A stretch of 64,000 nucleotides of DNA, from assembly GCF_042242105.1 (NCBI RefSeq), contig NC_092027.1:8893221-8957220 (forward strand). Direction: 5' to 3'. Below, piece after piece: positions 31,312 to 64,000 of the stretch; position 1 is the first letter of the stretch, and every line of letters begins with the position of its first letter. The translations under genes were made by a program, and so were the position numbers. Source of the DNA: Pempheris klunzingeri. Its lineage: Eukaryota > Chordata > Actinopteri > Acropomatiformes > Pempheridae. Under the pieces are notes generated by a model that had not been told where the DNA came from, searched no databases, and saw nothing but the letters and a program-made list of their open reading frames with translations.

Positions 31312-34300
31312 ATGTCGGACAACAGCCACAGCACAGGCAGCAGCGGCTCCTCCACCAACAGCTGGACCCTCCTCTCCCCCGAGGTAAGACACAGAACCAG
31401 CTCGGGAAACTCTGCTCGAAGCAGGCTCTGTGTGCCTGGATGTAATTTGGAGGAGCGTTATTTTCATTGCTCACGAGTACAATTAAAATATAGCATGTCT
31501 GTACCTGAATGCTGGTACAGCTTCCCATAGTTATGAGACTGTAGCAAATTAAAAGTACCAAATGATCCAGTCTTCTGTCTTGGTGTTATTTATGTATGTG
31601 TGAGGCACTGACTTGTTTATTCTCCCATAAGCGCTGCTTGTTATTTTTTTTGCTTTGTACCTCAACTCAGTGTGAAAGTATTTGTGCATTACTGTATGTC
31701 TGGAGGGGGCATTGAGGGCAAAAACATATATCGTAATAACCAGATTATCTACATACACTTCATTGCCAGTTTATTAGGTACACCTACCCAGAACTAAAGC
31801 AGTCTAATACAACAGCCTTGCAGTGAATCCTACTTTAATGAAGGTTATAGGTTTTCATTGCTTTATAACGAGAGATAAACATTTGTTCGCCCCATTTATA
31901 TCAGTGAGATTCGGCTTAAGATGATTGCTGAGTGTGTGTCACAGTATAAGTGTTGGATTGGATAATTATGTGTCAATATGTATAACAATCAGTATCTACT
32001 TTATTGTGAATTAATTCAGCAAAAAAAAGTAAAATCCCACAATTCAGTTACAGTGAAACACAGATGATATACAAGATGATATTGATATGTTTCTCAGCCC
32101 AGGCTTGTGTGCGTGTGTACGCCTGCCAGTATTGGGTGTGCTGAAAATGTCAAGGTCAGTGTTACCAGGGAGTGTACTATAGGTGGCAAAGCCTGATCTC
32201 CAGGGATCTTCTCCACTCCACAGGAGGCTGCTGTTGAGAATGTTGGGCCAGTGGACGACGGCACCGAGAGTCTGGGTGACGTCCCAAGTCTCTCTGAGGA
32301 TGTGACAGGTATTGACGAGTCGATATCTGTGGCTACCGGCCAGGGTTGTGACATCAATAGGAGTCAAAGCCAAGAAGGGAGCTTGTAACCCTATGCTTTG
32401 GTTTCATATTTTAGTTTTGACATTGTGAAAATGTTATTACAGGAGCTGGTGTGGAGTTCAAACCGAGTGACGTTTCACCAGAAACTGTCCTGTCTGAAGA
32501 GGGCCATCAGGTTGGTGTACAATAAACTATGCAATAATCTAATAAAGGAGTAAGTTAGACCAATACATACACACATCCCTCTACAGCGTATTTGCATAGT
32601 TATAACCAGCTATTTGTAATGTATTAATGTGTCTAATTTCTTGTTTGGTGTTAAATCTCATGTACTTTCTTACTGCCCACACGCAGACAATGTGACAACA
32701 GAACACTCTGCAGATCTATAAAAACAACTTTACAGTAGTACCTCTGAATCAAGAGGCACTTCTCTGTCCACAATTAGCATTTTGCACCCATCTTTAAGAA
32801 CCCATACAGGCTGAAAAGTTCCATACAAGTTGTAGAGATACACTGAAAGTTGCCACACTAGAGTGTGAGGTTTTTAGCCCCATTAGGTTATCGTCATCTA
32901 TCTGTTTGTCTATGCTGTATTTGAGTAATGTGTGCAGTATTTGACATACCTGTAAAATATCGGACTGATTATATAGGCACCTCTTATCTTTCACTTATAT
33001 ATGTATATATAGTGTACATTTTGATTATCTTATATTTATGCTTCTCGATTATGCTCCACTATGCCAAGGCATATTCCATGTAATATGAAAAAATTGGGGC
33101 AACATAGGTAGTCATTAAATGAAAGAGACAATACAGACTGAAGGTCACAAAAAGTTTCTATAAAGGAGTTCACGGACAACCTGTTTCCCTACTGCCCATA
33201 TTTCTAGGTCTGTCAAGAGACGTCTCCAGAGTCCAGTGAGGGCCCCGTCCCTTCCAGTCCAACCCGGATGAGTCCTCTTCCATCCAGCTCTCTCGACCCT
33301 CCAGACCTCGATCTGGAGAGTCAGCCTCCAGTCATCCACGACATTGTAACCAGCTCCCCCAGTGACAATGAGCATCTCGGAGCTACACCCTTCGTCACCA
33401 ACATTGATTTGGGGGCTCCACTCGATATTCCTGCTACTGAATTCCTGCCAGCTGAGCCCGAGGAGTGCTGCTCTGCTGACTTCCCCGTCTCTACAGAACA
33501 AGTGCTTGATGCCCCCGCTGATATCGGGCCAATTCCTGATAGGCCTGCTGGAGAGAGTCCTGTCCTCACTGTTGAACCTGAGGTTGACATCCCCCTTACA
33601 GCCACTGATCCTCTCTCTCATGTTGAGGATGATATCAGCTTTGCTCCGGAGAGTACAGAACCGCCAGTCCAAGTCCCAGAGATCCCTGTGACTGAAAGCC
33701 CCATCAGTGAGAGTCCTGCACCGGAGACTGTTGGTTCAGTAGAGGCAGAGGAGGAGGAGGAGGCATTTGTGGAAAAGGATGAGATGGAGCTATCTGAAGC
33801 AGTGACCCAGGATGAGAGAGAAGAAGTAGAAGAAGTCGAAGAAGGTATGGAATCAGTCTCCAGGAATATTTATAATGACGCATGCGTGATGCACCAGGCA
33901 GTGGAAGTAGAAGTGAACTGAGAGATGGTTTTTAAGCTTTTTTTCTTGTGAAAAAATAGATGCTTTCTACTCTTCACAAACATTCAAAAATCCATCCAAT
34001 AAAACAATTAGAGGCTGTTTGGTTAACCCATGTCAGAATCAATATTAGAATCAGCTTTATTGCCAAGTAAGTTTTCTCATTACACAGAATTTGGCTTGGT
34101 ATATTGATGCATAATCAAGAAACACACATAAAAAATAGATTAAAAAAAAGATATTCACAATTCAGACCTTGAGGGGAAAAAAATACCAATACCATTTTAA
34201 TTGAAAAGCCTGATAAGCAATTAGAGGTGCATGTGAACTCATGTTTAAGAGTCCTCAAGCCAGAATGGTTGGTAACAGTTGTTCTAATAGGTGACACGAT

Positions 34301-37300
34301 ACAATCACACTGATTTTTCCTAAATTGCATTCCTTTAACAAGACTTCAAGTCTGTTCCTCCTGTCATCCCCTAGAGACAGACATGTTCATCACACTGTAC
34401 ACAAAATGGCAGTGAAGTGATTTAACAAAATGTAAGAATCTGCACCATATAAGCTCAACCTCAGCTGAAATGATCAGGTCTTAAAGCTCAAATTTTGAGT
34501 CGGGTTTCTTCTTGGACATGGACACATTTCAAGGTCCTTATCATATCAGGTAATATTGTACTAGTTAATACTTTAATAGTGCATATTCAAAGTTACAATC
34601 TGTCATATATCTATACTCATATACAGTGAAAATCTGGTATCTGTGGTTAACAGCTTTGCCCGGTTGGTAACGCAGCCTTGAGTGGTGTGGTGTTTGGCTC
34701 TTTGTAATTAGCACTAGTCGGCAGAAGCAGAAAATGAGAGTCCTCTTGCAGAAGAACTGGTTTACATGTTTCTTATCTGTGTCACACTAGCAGCTGGAAA
34801 GTGATTTATCAGTGTGACAGGGAGGTGTACACCCCGCTGAGAAAATGAAGAAACCCCCATGCATGAAATTACTGTTGTTGTAATTTAGCAAGAAAATGTC
34901 ATCCATTTCCACAAGCAGCGCCTTTTTTCATGAAGTGTTTACAGACAGTGTTTCGCTGTTCTTGTAGTCGCTTAGATATCGGTATTTGTCTGTCTGCCAG
35001 TATATAATTATGATTTTAGAAGTAACTCTAGTACTGACACCTACCTAGCCAAAGATGTCAAGACGATTTGTTGAAGTGACTCAGGGACACATTTGAATAC
35101 ATGTGGTTTAGCTTTAGGCTCAGTGTCATCATCTTCCACAGAAATATATTATTAAATGTGACGACTCTCTGCTGTCTTGCCATTTCTTTCTCATGCTCAG
35201 GATTTCTTTTTCCGTTTTTTCCTCTTCTCCTCCCTCCTCTCCCTCCCTTAGAGGCATCCGGTACTTTTGATTTGGGCGACACAAGCAGCTTTGATGACGG
35301 ACTGAGGAGGAGGAATGTCCCCTCGTTTGAGGCACCAAGACCGAGAACATCAGATGAGGAAGATGAGGAAGAGGAAGTGGAGTTCAAGATGGTTGAAAAG
35401 AAGGAGGAAAAGCCATGGTTCTCCTTGAACAAATGCATTGTGGGAGCTCTCATTCTGCTCTTCTTAGGGTCCCTCTTCCTGACAGGTGAGGTCGTCTAAC
35501 ACCTACCCTAAGCCTGTTAGCTTGCTTCTGCTTTTCATGGTCAGTACAGCAAGATTAAACCATATTCATGCTAATAATTTCCAAATAAAGACGCGTATGT
35601 TAGAAATATCTCAGGATGAAAGTCTGGGCTTCTTCCACATGATTGGACTCTGTGCACCTGTAACATCAGAGATTTGAGAGTGATGTTTATTGAAAATATT
35701 GTCAAAAAAATTAAACATTTGCGTCTGTGACAATAATTTACAAATTGCATCAGAGCATTTATATGCAGTTGTCAGCAATAGACAGATTTATTTTTTTTTA
35801 GATCTTGATGACTAAGCTGTACTATGTCAACAGGTTTCCTCTCTGACCTGGATAATGGTAGGTCCAGTGCTAAAGATAAGACAGCAGTGCAAGCTTCTGC
35901 GCTAGCCGGCTAAAGCTCAATAGCTTGTCCAAGTACTTATCTGACCTGACATTTCATGCAGTGGCTGCAGAAAATGGCAAATAACACGCAATATGAATTG
36001 TATGATAACACTCTATCACTGTTTGGAAGAACCCACTGGATGCTGAGGGCATTTAAGTTGAAGGGAAACTCACATATTGCTCGCAATTTGCTTGGTTAAG
36101 CAACATATACCATACTTTTTAATGGATTTAAAGAACTCTGCCTAAATAGTTTCTGTGTTATCTACAGGTAGTGTCTGCGCTCACAGAATGCGCTTCAGAA
36201 CAAAAACATCTCATGCAGTTGTAAGACAGCTTGGTACCTGTGTGTCAATAAAAGTGTCTGCAAGTGTCTTGTCTGTAAGACGAGCGTGAAAGACGTGCTG
36301 TTGTCTTGTCCGACAGGTGACTTTGACGCGTCTGAACTGGGTGACGGAGAACAAAGCCAGGTCTGTTCCTGCCCTCCCTTGCTTCACTTACTCAATCGCA
36401 GTGTTATAAGTTGTCCAATGTGGGTTTATACAGAAGTATTTAAAGAAAACTTAGAAGATAAATTCCAAAGATGTGATCATTTAAAACTATGTGTTTTATT
36501 CATTTGCCAACCATTTTCAATCCAGGACTGGCTTAGCAGTGATCCACAGGATATGAAAGAGCTATTGGATAAACTGACACAGGAAAACCAACAAATCGCT
36601 CAGCTAGAGGCTCAACTACAGGTCAGTATGCCAGTTATATTGATGCTAATGATGTTGTAATGCACTGCACTATACAGGCAGCATGTCTTCAGAAACATTT
36701 GTGCAGCACCTTGGTGTGACTGTGGTCACTTGTCTGCATTGTTAACATTGCTGTTTTTCTTTATTCCATAGTCTCAGAAAGAAGAACTCGACTCTGCTCT
36801 GAAGGCAGTAGCAGCAAGTGGTGATGAAACGGGTAAAGCAGATCTGGAAAAAGAAAACACAAAGTTGAAGGAGGAGCTGTCATCTCTGCCTGAGCTGAAG
36901 AAAGAGCTGGAGAGTCTGAGGACCAGGGTGACCGAACTCAACCAGCTCACAGGTACCAAGTGGCAAACATGAAGCGACTCATTTAATATTGAGTGAAACC
37001 TGCACTGCTGCATGTTGATTTCAGTTAATATTTATTGAAATGATGCATATAGTAGAATTGACCTTTCTGGTGTAATTATTTAACATCATAACTTGATATC
37101 TCGTATCATTCACAGCTGATCAGGAAAAGTCTCCGGCTACCTTAAGCTCAACCCCTCAGCCTGGTAACAAAGACGCTCAGAGTAACCAGAAAGCAGCTGG
37201 ACCTGAGAGGAAGACGGGCACAAATGAAGGAGGAAGGCTGAAGGAAGAACTCCAGAGGCAGAAGGTTCTCTTGGAGGAGAGCGGGAAGAGACTGGAAGGA

Positions 37301-38155
37301 ATGAAAAAAGATGGAGGCGACAGGAAAAGAGTGAGGGATAGTTTGGAGGAGATCCAGAAGAAGCTTTCTGAACAGGTTGAGAAGTGGGGTAAGAAGAAGC
37401 CACAGGAGTCCAAATGGAAAGCGAACAAAGGCAAAACCAATGAGCGGGAACACTGGAAGAAAGACGAAAAGAAGGAAAGGAGAGGAGAGAAAGATTGGAA
37501 GCACAGCAAAGAGGGAGGATGGAGGGACAAAGAAGAGAAGAAGGAGAAGGAGTGGAAGTCCCAGAAGCAGAATTCTCACAAAGAGGCATGGAGGAAACAC
37601 CAGGATGAGTGGGAGAGGAAGAAGGTGGAGCGCCGAATGGACAGAGAGGAGAGGAGAAGGGAGAAACCGTGGCACAGCCGGCCTGGTAAGGACTCCCACA
37701 GCCATCACCAGCACCAGCATCACCAGCACCAGCCCCGGCAGCCTCATCAGCACAACCAAAACAACTTCTGGAGAGACCAGGAGCAGAAGCTCAGACGCAA
37801 CGTGCGCCCCCAGCTGGGCTGCAGCTCTCTGGAGGACTGCGCCAGCAAGGAGGGGCTCTACCCGGTGGAGCTGCCCGAGTTTGAGGAGCTGCTGGAGGGC
37901 TACCTGAGCAAGCTTGAGGGGTCATCCTCTGAGAGCAAGGACAAGATCAGGAAGCTGACCGCAGAGTTCTTTGAGGACGGCGTGTTTATCCACGACAGGG
38001 TTCTTTTCAGTGACTTCGCCGAGGACGTAGCGGACATTCTGGAGGACATGGTGGACGTTTTGGAGGACAGCGGGCAGAAGGACGACGACTCCCTGGAGGA
38101 GGAGATGGAGGAGTTTGAACGAGAAGCCCTGTGGAAGTTTGCCGCCACAGCTTAA
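31312..38155 (+). CDS. pbxip1: Pbxip1/HPIP, PBX-interacting protein 1 (10 coding exons)
   Basis: Exons: 31312-31383, 32224-32308, 32443-32510, 33208-33844, 35252-35485, 35834-35857, 36317-36360, 36526-36621, 36772-36952, 37116-38155. They total 2481 nt, or 826 aa plus stop, with all phases compatible (human about 731 aa). The N-terminus has a Ser-rich start ending SWTLLSPE. Residues about 75-345 are acidic Pro/Glu-rich sequence. One hydrophobic helix lies near 348-366 (NKCIVGALILLFLGSLFLTG). A coiled coil starts near 393 (MKELLDKLTQENQQIAQLEA). A Lys/Glu/Trp-rich stretch covers about 545-670, a His/Gln-rich stretch about 674-695, and the C-terminal domain has CSSLEDCASKEGL and FFEDGVFIHDRV, matching PBXIP1. 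The known protein binds PBX1, oestrogen receptor and microtubules. An in-frame ATG at 31219 could add 31 residues, but an acceptor at 31258 suggests translation starts at 31312. CCPG1 is the main alternative; synteny with cks1b favours pbxip1. Confidence 0.93.
31754..31865 (+). repeat. Fragment of a dispersed repeat in pbxip1 intron 1
   Basis: CCAGTTTATTAGGTACACCTA followed by TAATACAACAGCCTTGCAGTG and ATCCTACTTTAATGAAGG is a fragment I recognise as common in fish genomes. It is partial and has no coding content. Confidence 0.45.
34034..34165 (+). repeat. Fragment of a dispersed repeat in pbxip1 intron 4
   Basis: TAGAATCAGCTTTATTGCCAAG followed by ACAGAATTTGGCTTGGT and TGCATAATCAAGAAACACA is a frequent fish repeat tail. 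It lies inside the intron between exons 4 and 5 and does not affect splicing signals. Confidence 0.45.
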
Positions 38156-41599: not shown

Positions 41600-42654
41600 A
41601 TGGAAGATGCCATCTGCACCCTCGTCACCCAGTTCAAGAAGTACGCTGGGAAAGACGGGTCCTCCAGCACCCTGAGCAAAGATGAATTCCAAAACCTGGT
41701 GATCTCTCAGCTACCGAACTATGTCAAGGTAAATCTCAGAAGTTGGCCACTTTTCCTGCTGTTGACTGTGCATTCTGTGCGCCTATAGACAGGCATTAAG
41801 GAAAACTGTGGTGGTCTATTATGAAACATTAAGGTGTGCGAAGCCTCTTGAAATGTCACAGTACTGTTATTCACCGTTATTTACTGTGGCTTTTACATAT
41901 AACTGCTCATTAAAACAAATGACTTTCTCTAAATTCAGATTGATGTTTTGTCTTCAGTAATTATGTTTACTTTCAAACAGGTTTCATAATTATCTTAATT
42001 ATATTCTTTTTATATTCCAGTTTAGAGCCACATTTTTATGCTGTGTGTTTTCTTTGTTAATCTGCCAATTATTTTTCCCATTACTCAATTTATGCATACT
42101 AATGCATATCAAGTGTAATTTCCCAGCGTAAATTAGCAAAATGATGCTTTAAAATGACTTAATTTGTCTGGGAGAAAATGCATTAAACTTACAGTTTCTT
42201 CTTTGATCAGCTATAACCTCTAAATAATCATGTTTGACAAATAAGTCAGACGCTGTATATCTGCATACAAAATATATCAAGTTTTACAACATATATTGAT
42301 ATGATGCTTGTTGTATAATGGCAAATGTGTGTCTTAGAGTTTGATTAAATATGTGCTTTTGGGTGGTTTTATCATCTGGAAACAAAGGAATTTGTACCTC
42401 AGTTATATTTATTACTACACCCAACCATTAGGTGGCAGGACAGCCCTGCAGAGTGCCTGATACTGTCGTTTAAAGTGATCTTGTCATGATCAGGGTTTCC
42501 TCTCTGTGATCACCCACAGAATGCCAGCGATCCTGGGGCGATCGAGCAGCTCATGGGCTCGCTGGATGAAAACAACGACGGAGAGCTGACTTTCTCCGAG
42601 TTCTGGCAGCTGATAGGAAAACTGGCGAGCAAACAGGGAGGCTTCAGTCAGTAG
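41600..42654 (+). CDS. S100 Ca2+-binding protein, S100A13/A14/A16-like (2 coding exons)
   Basis: Coding exons 41600-41728 and 42520-42654 (129+135 nt, phase 0) encode 87 aa. The protein is an S100 with an N-terminal pseudo-EF-hand (AGKDGSSSTLSKDEF, about residues 16-30) and a canonical C-terminal EF-hand DENNDGELTFSE (about residues 55-66) with D, N, D and terminal E ligands. QLPNYVK at the exon junction and FWQLIGKLA after the second loop resemble the QLPHLL and YWRLIGELA segments of S100A13/A14/A16. S100 proteins are homodimeric cytosolic Ca2+ sensors. The gene plan (non-coding leader, then one exon per EF-hand) is standard for the family. First of three tandem S100 genes here. Exact orthology to a named fish S100 is not settled, so no symbol is given. 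Confidence 0.9.
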
Positions 42655-47169: not shown

Positions 47170-47215
47170 GTAACACCACTGTCTTGGCCTCTTCCTTTTC
47201 CCAGAGAGAGGAGTC

Positions 47216-48177
47216 ATGGAGGCTGCCATTCAGACCATGGTGAAGGTCTTCCTGAAGTCGACCAAGGGAAAAGAGAGTCTAGGACAGAAAGAATTCCAGG
47301 GCCTTGTCAAGAGCCAGCTCTCCAACATCCTTTCGGTTAGGAAATTTCCATTGAACCTCTGTAAAATGTTACCAACACTTGCACAATGCAGCCAGTCTTA
47401 ACCTGTCCAGATTTTTAACACGAGTATTGTGACCAAATGGTGGTGTAATAGACAGTGGGTGAATTGGGAAAGTGATCCAATATGATAGAATGACATTCAT
47501 CAGCATGATAATGTAAATAGAGCCATTGATAGAGGGTCATTTACTGATTGTGCATAGTGATTTTGTCCGGGTAGAGTTACTCATCATCGTGCTTGATTAT
47601 CTCATGGATGTGTGTGCCTACTACCCAGGACACAGATAGCAAGGAGGCGATCAAAAACATGGGCCAAGGACTGGATGCCGACCACGACGGCAAGGTTGGT
47701 TTTGAGGAGTACATGAAGCTGGTCGGCTACCTGGCGGTCTCACTCAGCGAGCAGCGTACCGTCGCCACAGAGGAGCCTGCCCAAAATGCTGCATCCGGAC
47801 AGGTGGCAGAAAGCGTCCCAGACAAAGAGGAGGAGAAGCCAGAAGCAAACGCAGAGGTAAAAGAGGAAGCAAAGCCAGAGGCGAATGAAACGGCAAAGGC
47901 AGAGCCAGCTACCGAAGCCAAGGTAGACGCAAATGCAGACGCAACGGTACAAGTAAAAGTAGAAGTAAAGGCAGAGGGGGAGACGGAGCCCGTGGCAGTG
48001 GAGGAGGTGGAGATCCCAGCAGCGACGGCGGTGGCGGCAGTAGTAGAGGCAGTGGAAGAGGTCGTGAAAGAAGAAGGGAAGGCGGAGGAAACAGAAAAGG
48101 TGGAGGAGCCTGCAGAGAAGCTGCCTGCAGCTGCGGATGAAGAAGCGGAGAAGAAGACAGAGGAGGCGACCTCATAG
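47216..48177 (+). CDS. S100 protein with long acidic low-complexity C-terminal tail (2 coding exons)
   Basis: Coding exons 47216-47335 and 47629-48177 (120+549 nt, phase 0) encode 222 aa. Residues 1-90 are an S100 module: helix MEAAIQTMVKVFLK, a short pseudo-EF loop (STKGKESLGQKEF), KSQLSNIL at the junction, then a canonical EF-hand DADHDGKVGFEE. From about residue 95 a tail of some 130 residues is almost only Glu, Ala, Lys, Val, Pro and Thr, with a duplicated KPEAN 12 residues apart. It ends KKTEEATS and has no membrane segment or known domain. Ordinary S100 proteins have about 90-115 residues. The second exon is continuous through core and tail, so the tail is not an annotation join. The donor GTTAGG at 47336 is weak but in phase. 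The core is closest to the A13/A14/A16 group by position and helix sequence. The tail may be disordered and charge-driven (inference). Confidence 0.85.
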
Positions 48178-48723
48178 GGGACAATCCATTCCTTCACATA
48201 AAAATCATACTACACGCTTACATTAGACACCACAAAATACAAAGCATTAATGCCAAAATGAGTTGGTAAGCCACTAAAAAATGTCCATAATATCTAAACA
48301 CTACAAACCCAGTTCTGGAGAAACCCCTTTCCTTATATATGATAAATAATACATGTACATGATAGTAGAATTAATGCTATACTAGTTACCACTATGTTCA
48401 TATGTACAGCATGTGCATCCCACTATATAGCACATTTACCTCATTATGATACTACGTACTATGATAGCATGCAGACGTACACTACCATATGCATGCCATA
48501 TCCCTGTGAAAACTTTACTGCAAAATATGATTTACCTGCAGCAGCACACTGACACACATGGCCAAAGTGTCACTGTTTGTTAACACACCACTGCAGCCAA
48601 GATGTTTGTCCTCTCCCCACCTTTGGCTTTATCTGGGTCTCTTCTTCAGCTCTCCTACACTGCTAACTGTACACAGGCCATCTGTAAAACATCAGCAGTA
48701 CACACCATCCTAAGCACTAATGG

Positions 48724-49050
48724 CTTAAAGGAGTAGTTTCACATTTTGGGGAATATGCTTAACTAGTTTTATTGCCAGGAGTAAGATGAGACCATTGCTA
48801 CCAATACTATGTATCCATTCAATGTGAAGCTTCAGCCAGCAGCTAGTTAGCATGGGTTAGCATAAATACTGCAAACAGTGGAGAACCGGTAGCTTGGCTT
48901 GGCTACCAACACCGGTTTTTGGACCAAGCCAAGCTAGCTGTTTCCCCATTTCCAGTGGTTATGCTAGAATAAGCTAATTAGCTTTAATGGTATCAATGTT
49001 CACATCTAGCAAGAAAGCTAATTAGTGTTTTTCCCAACATTTCCAAGTAT
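48724..49050 (+). repeat. Dispersed teleost repeat, family A, with internal hairpin
   Basis: It starts TTAAAGGAGTAGTTTCACATTTTGG and ends AGTGTTTTTCCCAACATTT, the inverse of its start. The centre has 13-bp perfect arms at 48890-48902 and 48924-48936 around a 21-base loop. The middle of the family consensus seems to be collapsed here. Confidence 0.65.
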
Positions 49051-50842
49051 TCCCATAGTGATTGCATGAAAAATCTGTCAGTAACACTTGACCCATTTTT
49101 TTTACGTTCTCGTCTTTTTACTCACAATGCTATGGAGCTGATTTGACAATAAACAGATTGTTTTGTTAAAGCTTTGCGTTACTTCAGCTCATCTTAATTG
49201 TGTACTCCATGCCCCATCACACCCTCTTCTCTCTCTCTCTTTCTAATCTACTCCATGGACTCTCTGTCTCTTTCTTTTTTTTCTGTGATTCCCAGACACG
49301 GTCACTTCTTCGGGATCTTTCAGTATATTCTCTTCGCTCGTAGTCAGATGTGAATTAGGAACTGGAAGATCAGGTGTGGCTCTTGGCTAAATAATTGACG
49401 TTCAAGAATGGAATCCACACCAAAGGACCCTTACGGTCAAAAGGGAGCCTAAAATAGTCCCGTGGGAGTGGACTGATGACTAGCAGAGCAGATCACAGAG
49501 CATGCTCATGCAACCTAATCCACCTGGATTATAGCTGGTAGAGAAGAACAAAATTATAAGCACAAGAGGTCGAGAAACTCATAAAAGGTGTCACTCAGTG
49601 GCAGTTCCATCTCAAGTGCTTTACGATACAATGTCTTCTGAACTTTATGGCGTTTAAACCTTCAGGTTGTAATTCTTGATCCATAAAGGTGCTGAATGGT
49701 ACATAATCTGGAGTGAGTCTGGGTAGCACTGGACTAGAGTGACAGAAATGTGGCCTTTGTTTTGGGGGGGCTCTCTTTAAAATCGCACATTGTTGTCTGT
49801 TTTCTGACGGTTTTAGCACCACTTGTTCTGGCTTGCGTGTTTGTTTGTCGGTCACACCCTCATACAGTTTAAAGACCCTGTTTGACCTGCAACTGGATCC
49901 TTGCATCCCAGGCATTGGGAAACTACTGGATTAGGCATTCGATGGGTAACACACCCTGGGACACAAACAATTACATGAAAGTAATCCTGGGCTCCAGTGA
50001 TCCTGCTTTTCAGACAAGGTGGTAGTGTTAGAGGGATCGTTGTCAGATGTTGTGCTTTTTTTTAAAGAAAAAAAAAGAATACTGAGCCATCAATATGAAT
50101 CTATGTGGTGTGATCTTTTGCAACGGGCTAATACATAAATGATGCATGCTATCAGAAACTAATTTTCTAGTATTACAATTGTATTGCAATTATTGTGGCC
50201 AAATATTTAAGTTCGGCATGGCCTTTCTATATTTAAACTTTTTTAATGTAACTCTTTCTTGTTTGGACCACTATGGAGATCACTTGAAAACGAACTTCTT
50301 TGTCACATTATATGCAATTTGTTAATTACAATTTAATGATCTGTAAATTGTCTCATCATCAATAATGCAGCCATGAGAAAAAGGCTCATGTTGCAAGCCT
50401 GCTATGTTATAGGTCTACCTGGCCAGCCACGTAGTGCTTAGGGCACACACATTTTGGGCATGCTACCAAATGTGCACCTTATGCAGTGTAACAGCACCTG
50501 GCAGTTCAAACTGCTCAGCAGCAAAATGGGCAAGACAAATAAACCTGAGTCATGTGGTCACCCTGCCTCACTGCGACACTCCCATTGCAAATACTCTCTC
50601 ATTTACACTCACTGTGCTCAGCCTTTATACTCATTGTACGCTGTGTTTCCTGCATGCTCTATTACTAACAAACTTATTGGGCATTTTGGGCTATTTAGAC
50701 TCCATTTGTTATTATTTCTTTTGTTAAAACCTATATTCTTTGTATATCAAAACATTTTCCAATCATGGTACTTCCTGTGACTAAAGGAAACATATCACTC
50801 TTTTGCACCATCTACAGCCAGCTCTTTGCTCAACATGTACAC

Positions 50843-53763: not shown

Positions 53764-54322
53764 ATGTCCAAGGAGCCCAGTTCCAACCTGGAGAGTGCCA
53801 TGCAGATGCTCATAAAGACCTTCCACAAGTACTCAGGGAAGGAGGGCGACAAGTACACACTGAGCAGGGGTGAACTGAAGGAGCTGCTACTAGAGGAGCT
53901 GGGGACTTACTTAGGGGTAAGAGAAGGAGTGTGTGGAGGGGCAAATATGTGGTTGTACACTGACACACTGATGCAGTTTGCAAATATGCAACACACAGCT
54001 GAAGGTATGCGCTCACATATTCAGACACACAAGTTCAGACAAGTTTGTGCGGTGATGTATGCCCACACACACAAGTTACAGAGAACACATTCTTAACTTT
54101 CTCTCTCTCTCTTTCCCTGTGTCCCGCTGACAGACTTCCAAAGATAATGAAGCAGTTGAGAAGGTGATGAACGACTTGGACGCCAACAACGACGGGGAGG
54201 TGGACTTCACCGAGTTCATCATCCTGATGGGCGCCCTCACTGTCGCCTGCAACGACTTCTTCCTGGAGTTCAAAACAGACGAGAAACCGAAAGAGGGCGA
54301 TTCGGCGGAGAAGAAAGATTAA
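53764..54322 (+). CDS. s100a1: S100A1-like Ca2+-binding protein (2 coding exons)
   Basis: Exons 53764-53916 and 54134-54322 (153+189 nt, phase 0) encode 113 aa. [20 protein letters not shown] and the ELKELL segment match the S100A1 N-terminal pseudo-EF-hand. [12 protein letters not shown] is a canonical second EF-hand, and [11 protein letters not shown] is the S100A1 hydrophobic C-terminal helix with its conserved Cys. S100A1 modulates SERCA/ryanodine receptor function in heart and muscle (known for mammals). A charged extension ([18 protein letters not shown]) adds about 18 residues beyond the normal end near residue 94. The ATG at 53764 lies two bases after the acceptor CAG. An upstream exon with its own ATG (53408) could extend the N-terminus. 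Its place last in the S100 row matches human S100A1, which flanks S100A13. S100Z/P-type paralogues are the alternative. Confidence 0.88.
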
Positions 54323-60698: not shown

Positions 60699-62959
<2,261 letters not shown>

Positions 62960-64000
62960 CTTGCAGGTGAGAAACAAGAGATTAGGGATTAAAATCTCTG
63001 CTGAGAGATAAACACAGAACCCCACCTGGAGAGGAAGGCGATCCCCTGTTGTCACATGACCAAAGGTCGACACTTCCACCATCTCCATTTCCCAAATAAA
63101 GACTATAAATTTAGACTGTTTGGTTGAAGACTTTGTTTGGAAATGGCTTAGTGACAGGCTGCAAGATTCAACATAACAGCATCACTTCTAATGAGGCACC
63201 GTTTATGAAGGTTTACAAGTTGTATCTATTGGCTATCTAATGTTTAGTATTTGCTGGTGCTTATCCTTTCTATTTGGCAGTAAAGTAGTTATGAATGTTC
63301 GTAATCCACTGATAAGTGCTAAGTAACTTAACTAAATGAACAGATTTTGGTCCAGAAGATAAGTGGTTGCATGGTCCAATCCCTCAAATCCTCACAAAGT
63401 GGCTGCCCAGACGATGTTCTTATTAAAGGCTTTTTATCTGATTCACAAAACATAAATACTTGATTTATCAATTATGAATAAAGCCATTTGTTACAACCTT
63501 TAAAGCCTTTATAAAAATGTACCTTATTAGTCAGAGCTACCACTATAACTGATGATGTGAAATTGTGAACTTTATCAGCCATTTGATTTACACTCTAGTG
63601 TTGCTGGGTGCTCTTAATACGATTTGACTGGTTAAATGAGGAATAAAGGAAGATGGCGGTGCTAACAGTTTAAGACAAATCTGCTCCCAATGCAAGAAAA
63701 GCTAATCATACTGAATTATGGCACAGCTTCGCACGATTTTCATTAGACTTTATCACTACTGCTGCATATCAGAATCTTATTTTACAGTATTGTCCTTTTT
63801 TACTTTACTCTTCATTACTTTGTTCTTTAGCTTGGATTCTACTTTTCTAACATGCTGTTAAAAGTATGTTTGTTTGGATGACAAACAGAGAGGACAGCAA
63901 ATAAGAATTTCATTTTACAGTGCAACCCACTAAATGTTATTTAATTGCTGCACTATCGCTAAAACTGGTTTTAAAGGACATGTTATTCCCCCTGAAATGT
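62960..64000. other. Upstream intron of she (no exon seen)
   Basis: The sequence is AT-rich with no frame resembling the N-terminal part of an SHB-family protein, so this is probably intron. Nothing else is recognised. Confidence 0.4.

Follow-up and report, generated by a model that had tools for sequence, protein, structure and literature searches.

Gene structure and neighbourhood

Genome searches covered 646 Mb, and the window, the whole stretch of DNA that was analysed, comprises 64,000 nucleotides (contig C16:8893221-8957220). We identified the following features in it, all on the forward strand:

41600..42654, +, S100 gene of normal length (87 aa; exons 41600-41728 and 42520-42654)
47205..47215, +, short 5′ UTR segment of coding exon 1, as read from the sequence, preceded by a pyrimidine-rich tract and CAG
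47216..47335, +, coding exon 1 (40 aa) with the N-terminal S100 EF-hand, its loop three residues shorter than that of the S100S-like neighbour
47629..47760, +, first part of coding exon 2 (residues 41-84), with the hinge, the canonical second EF-hand loop DADHDGKVGFEE and helix IV
47761..48174, +, second part of coding exon 2 (residues 85-222), a 138-aa acidic tail rich in E, A, V and K
47836..47850, +, KPEAN unit, copy 1
47872..47886, +, KPEAN unit, copy 2, with three DNA differences from copy 1
48175..48177, +, TAG stop codon
49148..49153, +, AATAAA, the single candidate polyadenylation signal in a scan of 48178-50500 for AATAAA or ATTAAA
53764..54322, +, S100S-like gene (113 aa; exons 53764-53916 and 54134-54322), the name S being given by analogy with the genes described in PMC2266712

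The coding exons 47216-47335 and 47629-48177 were joined in frame (phase 0) and give a predicted product of 222 aa. The intron between them, 47336-47628, is of the GT..AG type, with the donor GT at 47336 and the acceptor AG at 47627-47628, and the frame runs without interruption from this acceptor to the TAG. Our analysis thus agrees with the preliminary description, which had proposed an S100 protein whose long tail is encoded in one exon with an EF-hand: the S100 part comprises about 84 residues and the tail 138. The ATG lies 11 bases 3′ of the pyrimidine-rich CAG, and a further non-coding exon would be expected upstream of 47205 from the usual S100 gene plan.

Long frames elsewhere in the window, at 33208-38152 (+) and 62631-62981 (−), may resemble PBXIP1 and the SHE adaptor. 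Both genes are neighbours of the S100 region at human 1q21. Pfam gave no match for the frames submitted, so that these names are tentative.

Probable identification as a teleost S100U gene

The S100-type N-terminal domain was recognised by the Pfam S_100 model with 21.9 bits, just below the curated cut-off of 22, and the Pfam EF-hand models also stayed below their cut-offs (for example, 15.7 vs 25.4 bits for EF-hand_1). A phmmer search against the PDB placed S100A16 chains first (E 2.9e-10 and 3.1e-10) among the best 60 of 206 matches, and these 60 consisted mainly of S100 proteins, besides some chains of calcineurin B and calmodulin. The loop DADHDGKVGFEE aligned with the second EF-hand loop of S100A16. 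A single intron separates the two EF-hands, which leaves two main coding exons; this is the S100 gene plan, including the intron placement, as given in section 10 of PMC2266712.

The first EF-hand loop is three residues short. Exon 1 encodes 40 aa against 43 homologous residues in the S100S-like neighbour (direct count against 53764-53916), and the match to S100A1 paired 79 query residues with 82 chain residues. According to the corresponding passages of PMC2266712, the S100-specific loop lacks about three residues in S100U, and also in S100V and some other members. The supplementary legend of the same paper (Kraemer et al. 2008) describes a C-terminal extension of 130-140 residues common to three teleost S100U genes. 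The 138 aa of the present tail match that extension, although the agreement is in length only.

The genomic neighbourhood points in the same direction. In zebrafish, S100U is described as clustering with S100S, S100A11 and S100A10a (PMC2266712), and we found the S100S-like gene, whose naming as S rather than T is by analogy, 6 kb downstream. This neighbour gives weak support to the S100U identity, since the same source states that cluster associations vary between species. From the shortened first loop, the two coding exons, the extension (reported for three members and reaching position 240 in zebrafish) and the S100S neighbour of the zebrafish cluster, all shared with teleost S100U as it is presented in these sources, we regard the window gene as very probably S100U.

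The earlier description implied that the tail is a novelty, which did not hold. Besides the three S100U genes of the legend (PMC2266712), zebrafish s100u appears in a 2025 paper with positions 90-240 extending past the calprotectin alignment and predicted to be disordered (PMC12047837). An extension of this size is therefore already in print, the S100U tail is already known, and the gene is ordinary in this respect. Because the legend speaks of three genes, other S100U members are implied to lack the extension, so that the tail would not be constant in the subfamily; S100U is also stated there to be duplicated in pufferfish (PMC2266712). As regards expression, s100u is mentioned in some immune cells of zebrafish (PMC12047837), and a table of stickleback brain transcripts includes S100u, apparently under hindbrain/cerebellum (PMC4569571). 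In the excerpts of the s100u literature considered here, no test of tail function was found.

The acidic tail

Residues 85-222 consist of E (26.8%), A (22.5%), V (13.8%), K (10.1%), T (6.5%) and P (6.5%). With 41 acidic and 14 basic residues among 138, the tail has a net charge of −27 and a calculated pI of 4.13, and its entropy is 3.0 bits, i.e., of low complexity. The S100 identity, the fish-type gene and the low-complexity acidic composition described earlier were all borne out, as was the duplication of the KPEAN unit, whose copies at 47836 and 47872 differ only at third codon positions. This composition (E, A, K, P) is presumably like that of MARCKS, BASP1 and neurofilament tails, a likeness of composition only.

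An origin of the tail by tandem repetition was considered and rejected. No row was obtained at the default threshold, and the lowered one gave four short rows scoring 32-41, so there is no array in the tail. The whole protein had Pfam matches that reached the tail, one to BcsG (E 0.13) and one to a paramyxovirus nucleocapsid model (E 0.71); both were put down to chance similarity of low-complexity sequence. Two matches from a PDB search with the tail alone (E 0.15 and 0.37) were likewise discarded.

When the tail DNA was shuffled 2000 times with its dinucleotides preserved, the same frame remained open in 8 cases, and any of the three forward frames in 21. These counts argue against openness by chance, though the purine-rich composition helps to keep the frame open. 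One reverse-strand frame across the tail is open as well (160 aa from stop to stop), so that openness alone is moderate evidence only.

We considered whether the tail could be partly or wholly a retained intron, most transcripts joining a donor within the tail to an acceptor further downstream and encoding a shorter protein. The normal donor (GT 47336) is weak, agreeing with 5 of 9 consensus positions; exon 2 contains six donor-like GTs with 6-7 of 9, five of them within the tail, and four acceptor-like sites lie 3′ of the tail in a scan to 49400. However, the frame stays both open and acidic for 138 codons, while only 8 of the 2000 shuffles kept it open, and extensions of equal length are reported for other fish in the relevant parts of PMC2266712 and PMC12047837. 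A retained intron is thus very improbable.

The tail frame might also be a functionless by-product of the purine-rich composition, arising from read-through into former 3′ untranslated sequence. Its low complexity and the open reverse-strand frame are in keeping with this, and so is the search of the tail against the whole genome, in which 26 candidates were scored and the tail itself was the sole match at E ≤ 0.01. Yet an extension of similar length in the three published S100U genes (legend of PMC2266712) suggests maintenance, and the restriction of the KPEAN differences to third positions is a weak hint to the same effect. We consider such a by-product unlikely.

A disorder prediction, which had been proposed for the tail, gave a divided answer: the Uversky value fell on the disordered side, whereas the single-sequence AlphaFold model was poor and mixed. 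The mean hydropathy of the tail, 0.417, is below its boundary of 0.484, and that of the S100 part, 0.455, is above its boundary of 0.418. AlphaFold modelling of exon 2 alone from a single sequence yielded a mean pLDDT of 51.6 and a pTM of 0.26 and was poor throughout. The pLDDT was below 50 over the initial stretch of the tail (exon 2 residues 42-95), while residues 101-150, also in the tail, reached block means of 57-71 with low-confidence strands and a helix. Because these residues outscored most of the EF-hand part, the model is no clean evidence for disorder. We infer that the tail is largely disordered from its composition together with the prediction published for zebrafish, as far as it is described in PMC12047837.

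A tail-less paralogue and the other S100 genes of the genome

A genome search with the first 86 residues returned the two exons of the gene itself and one further place, on C8 (44% identity over residues 39-83). The C8 paralogue encodes 92 aa and shares 49% identity with the window protein in an ungapped alignment of 84 residues. It scored 13.2 bits with Pfam S_100, and its best PDB match was S100A13. Its stop lies eight residues past the alignable part, just after helix IV, which gives it the normal length, and no remnant of an E/A/K/V-rich tail was seen by eye in the 600 bases behind it in three frames. The existence of such a tail-less copy is a further point that fits the by-product explanation discussed above.

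Fourteen queries from the window (six S100 exons and eight long reading frames) were compared by tblastn with nine C8 stretches (89,901 bases), and 9 of the 14 matched at E ≤ 0.01. Counterparts were found for the frames at 36.2 kb (39%), 37.1 kb (39%), 60.6 kb (42%) and 62.6 kb (57%), for both exons of the 41.6-kb S100 gene (the second at 77%), for the second exon of S100U (45%) and for both exons of the S100S-like gene (75 and 82%). At this threshold, the nine stretches held no match for exon 1 of S100U or for the frames at 31.2, 33.2, 35.1 and 62.0 kb. The best matches kept the order of the window, inverted. An inverted block of C8:16088801-16178700 (L004-L012) is thereby collinear with window 36172-62981 and includes three S100 genes. 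This block is likely a remnant of a whole-genome duplication, judging from the sequence comparison.

Within the block, the C8 gene that corresponds to the 41.6-kb S100 gene has a first exon (L009:2684-2804) that is split between frames, matching as two pieces, and it shows no ATG at the expected place, though its second exon is 77% identical. This first exon is possibly decayed, or possibly affected by an assembly error.

Because of this collinearity, the short C8 gene is most likely the whole-genome-duplication partner of S100U, and we treat it as probably such; by name it may be S100W or a second S100U. In the passages concerned, PMC2266712 attributes the S100 clusters on zebrafish chromosomes 16 and 19 to whole-genome duplication, with S and T forming one pair and U paired with none. 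PMC5072561, arguing in the part considered here against Kraemer's fish-only subfamilies, sees mammalian orthologues for most S100 genes of bony fish and has A13/A14 and A16 duplicated along with the teleost genome.

In the genome as a whole we found 14 matches to S100 first exons. The flanking sequence retrieved showed a clear second exon for seven (L014, L015, L016, L017, L020, L022 and L025), a doubtful one for L026 and none for the other six, and none of the seven two-exon genes carries a comparable tail. One of them, L025 (C8:16392168-16392281; S_100 36.2 bits), ends in a short lysine/glutamate-rich stretch of about 20 residues that follows its second EF-hand. A tree of 10 rows was built from this genome. 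It included both exons of each of the seven genes but only the first exon of L024; six of the 14 were left out. It paired the window gene with the C8 copy with a support of 86/93, a branch that was not starred. None of its seven inner branches was starred, and six were open.

Discussion

We lean slightly towards a gain of the tail in S100U rather than its loss in the C8 partner. A fuller scenario, which we regard as a possibility though we lean against it, is that the teleost whole-genome duplication yielded two copies of an S100A13/A16-type gene, both still in collinear blocks, and that a long acidic disordered tail was afterwards either acquired by one of them (S100U) or lost from the other. 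The tail would have arisen de novo by extension into what had been 3′ untranslated sequence, it would give one duplicate an electrostatically gated range of targets, and the two genes would form a natural tail/no-tail pair in one genome.

As for the protein, family knowledge suggests that the S100 part would form the usual dimer. Since the first loop is shortened, only the second EF-hand would bind calcium normally. The acidic disordered tail of each subunit would leave helix IV beside the S100 target-binding groove, and the tails might act electrostatically, tuning how basic partners, membranes or cations reach the groove. Such tuning is offered quite tentatively. The acidity of the tail, with 41 acidic residues of 138, might instead provide many low-affinity sites and make the protein a buffer of calcium or other cations; but the 14 basic residues are interspersed among them and nothing beyond the acidity speaks for this role, so we find it improbable. 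As a whole, the best explanation, in which we have good confidence, is an S100U protein that would form a dimer, bind calcium through its second EF-hand and carry largely disordered acidic tails, the electrostatic role of the tails being held with much less confidence.

Among mammalian proteins, S100A16 headed the PDB matches of the tailed gene and S100A13 those of the C8 paralogue, with S100A14 also among the matches listed. The S100A13, A14 and A16 chains listed have 97-106 residues and lack a long tail, unlike the window protein. Filaggrin and trichohyalin share with it the arrangement of an S100 domain followed by a long low-complexity region, and the S100 domain of filaggrin was among the PDB matches listed. 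These are skin proteins, and their tails are long tandem repeats. The tail in the window, in contrast, has no strong tandem repeat.

The tail-less paralogue on C8 is a small addition to the known picture of S100U and leaves knowledge of the family unchanged. Our findings indicate that S100 proteins outside the filaggrin group can carry a long, probably disordered tail, and the presence of tailed and tail-less copies in one fish offers a convenient comparison for the role of the tail.
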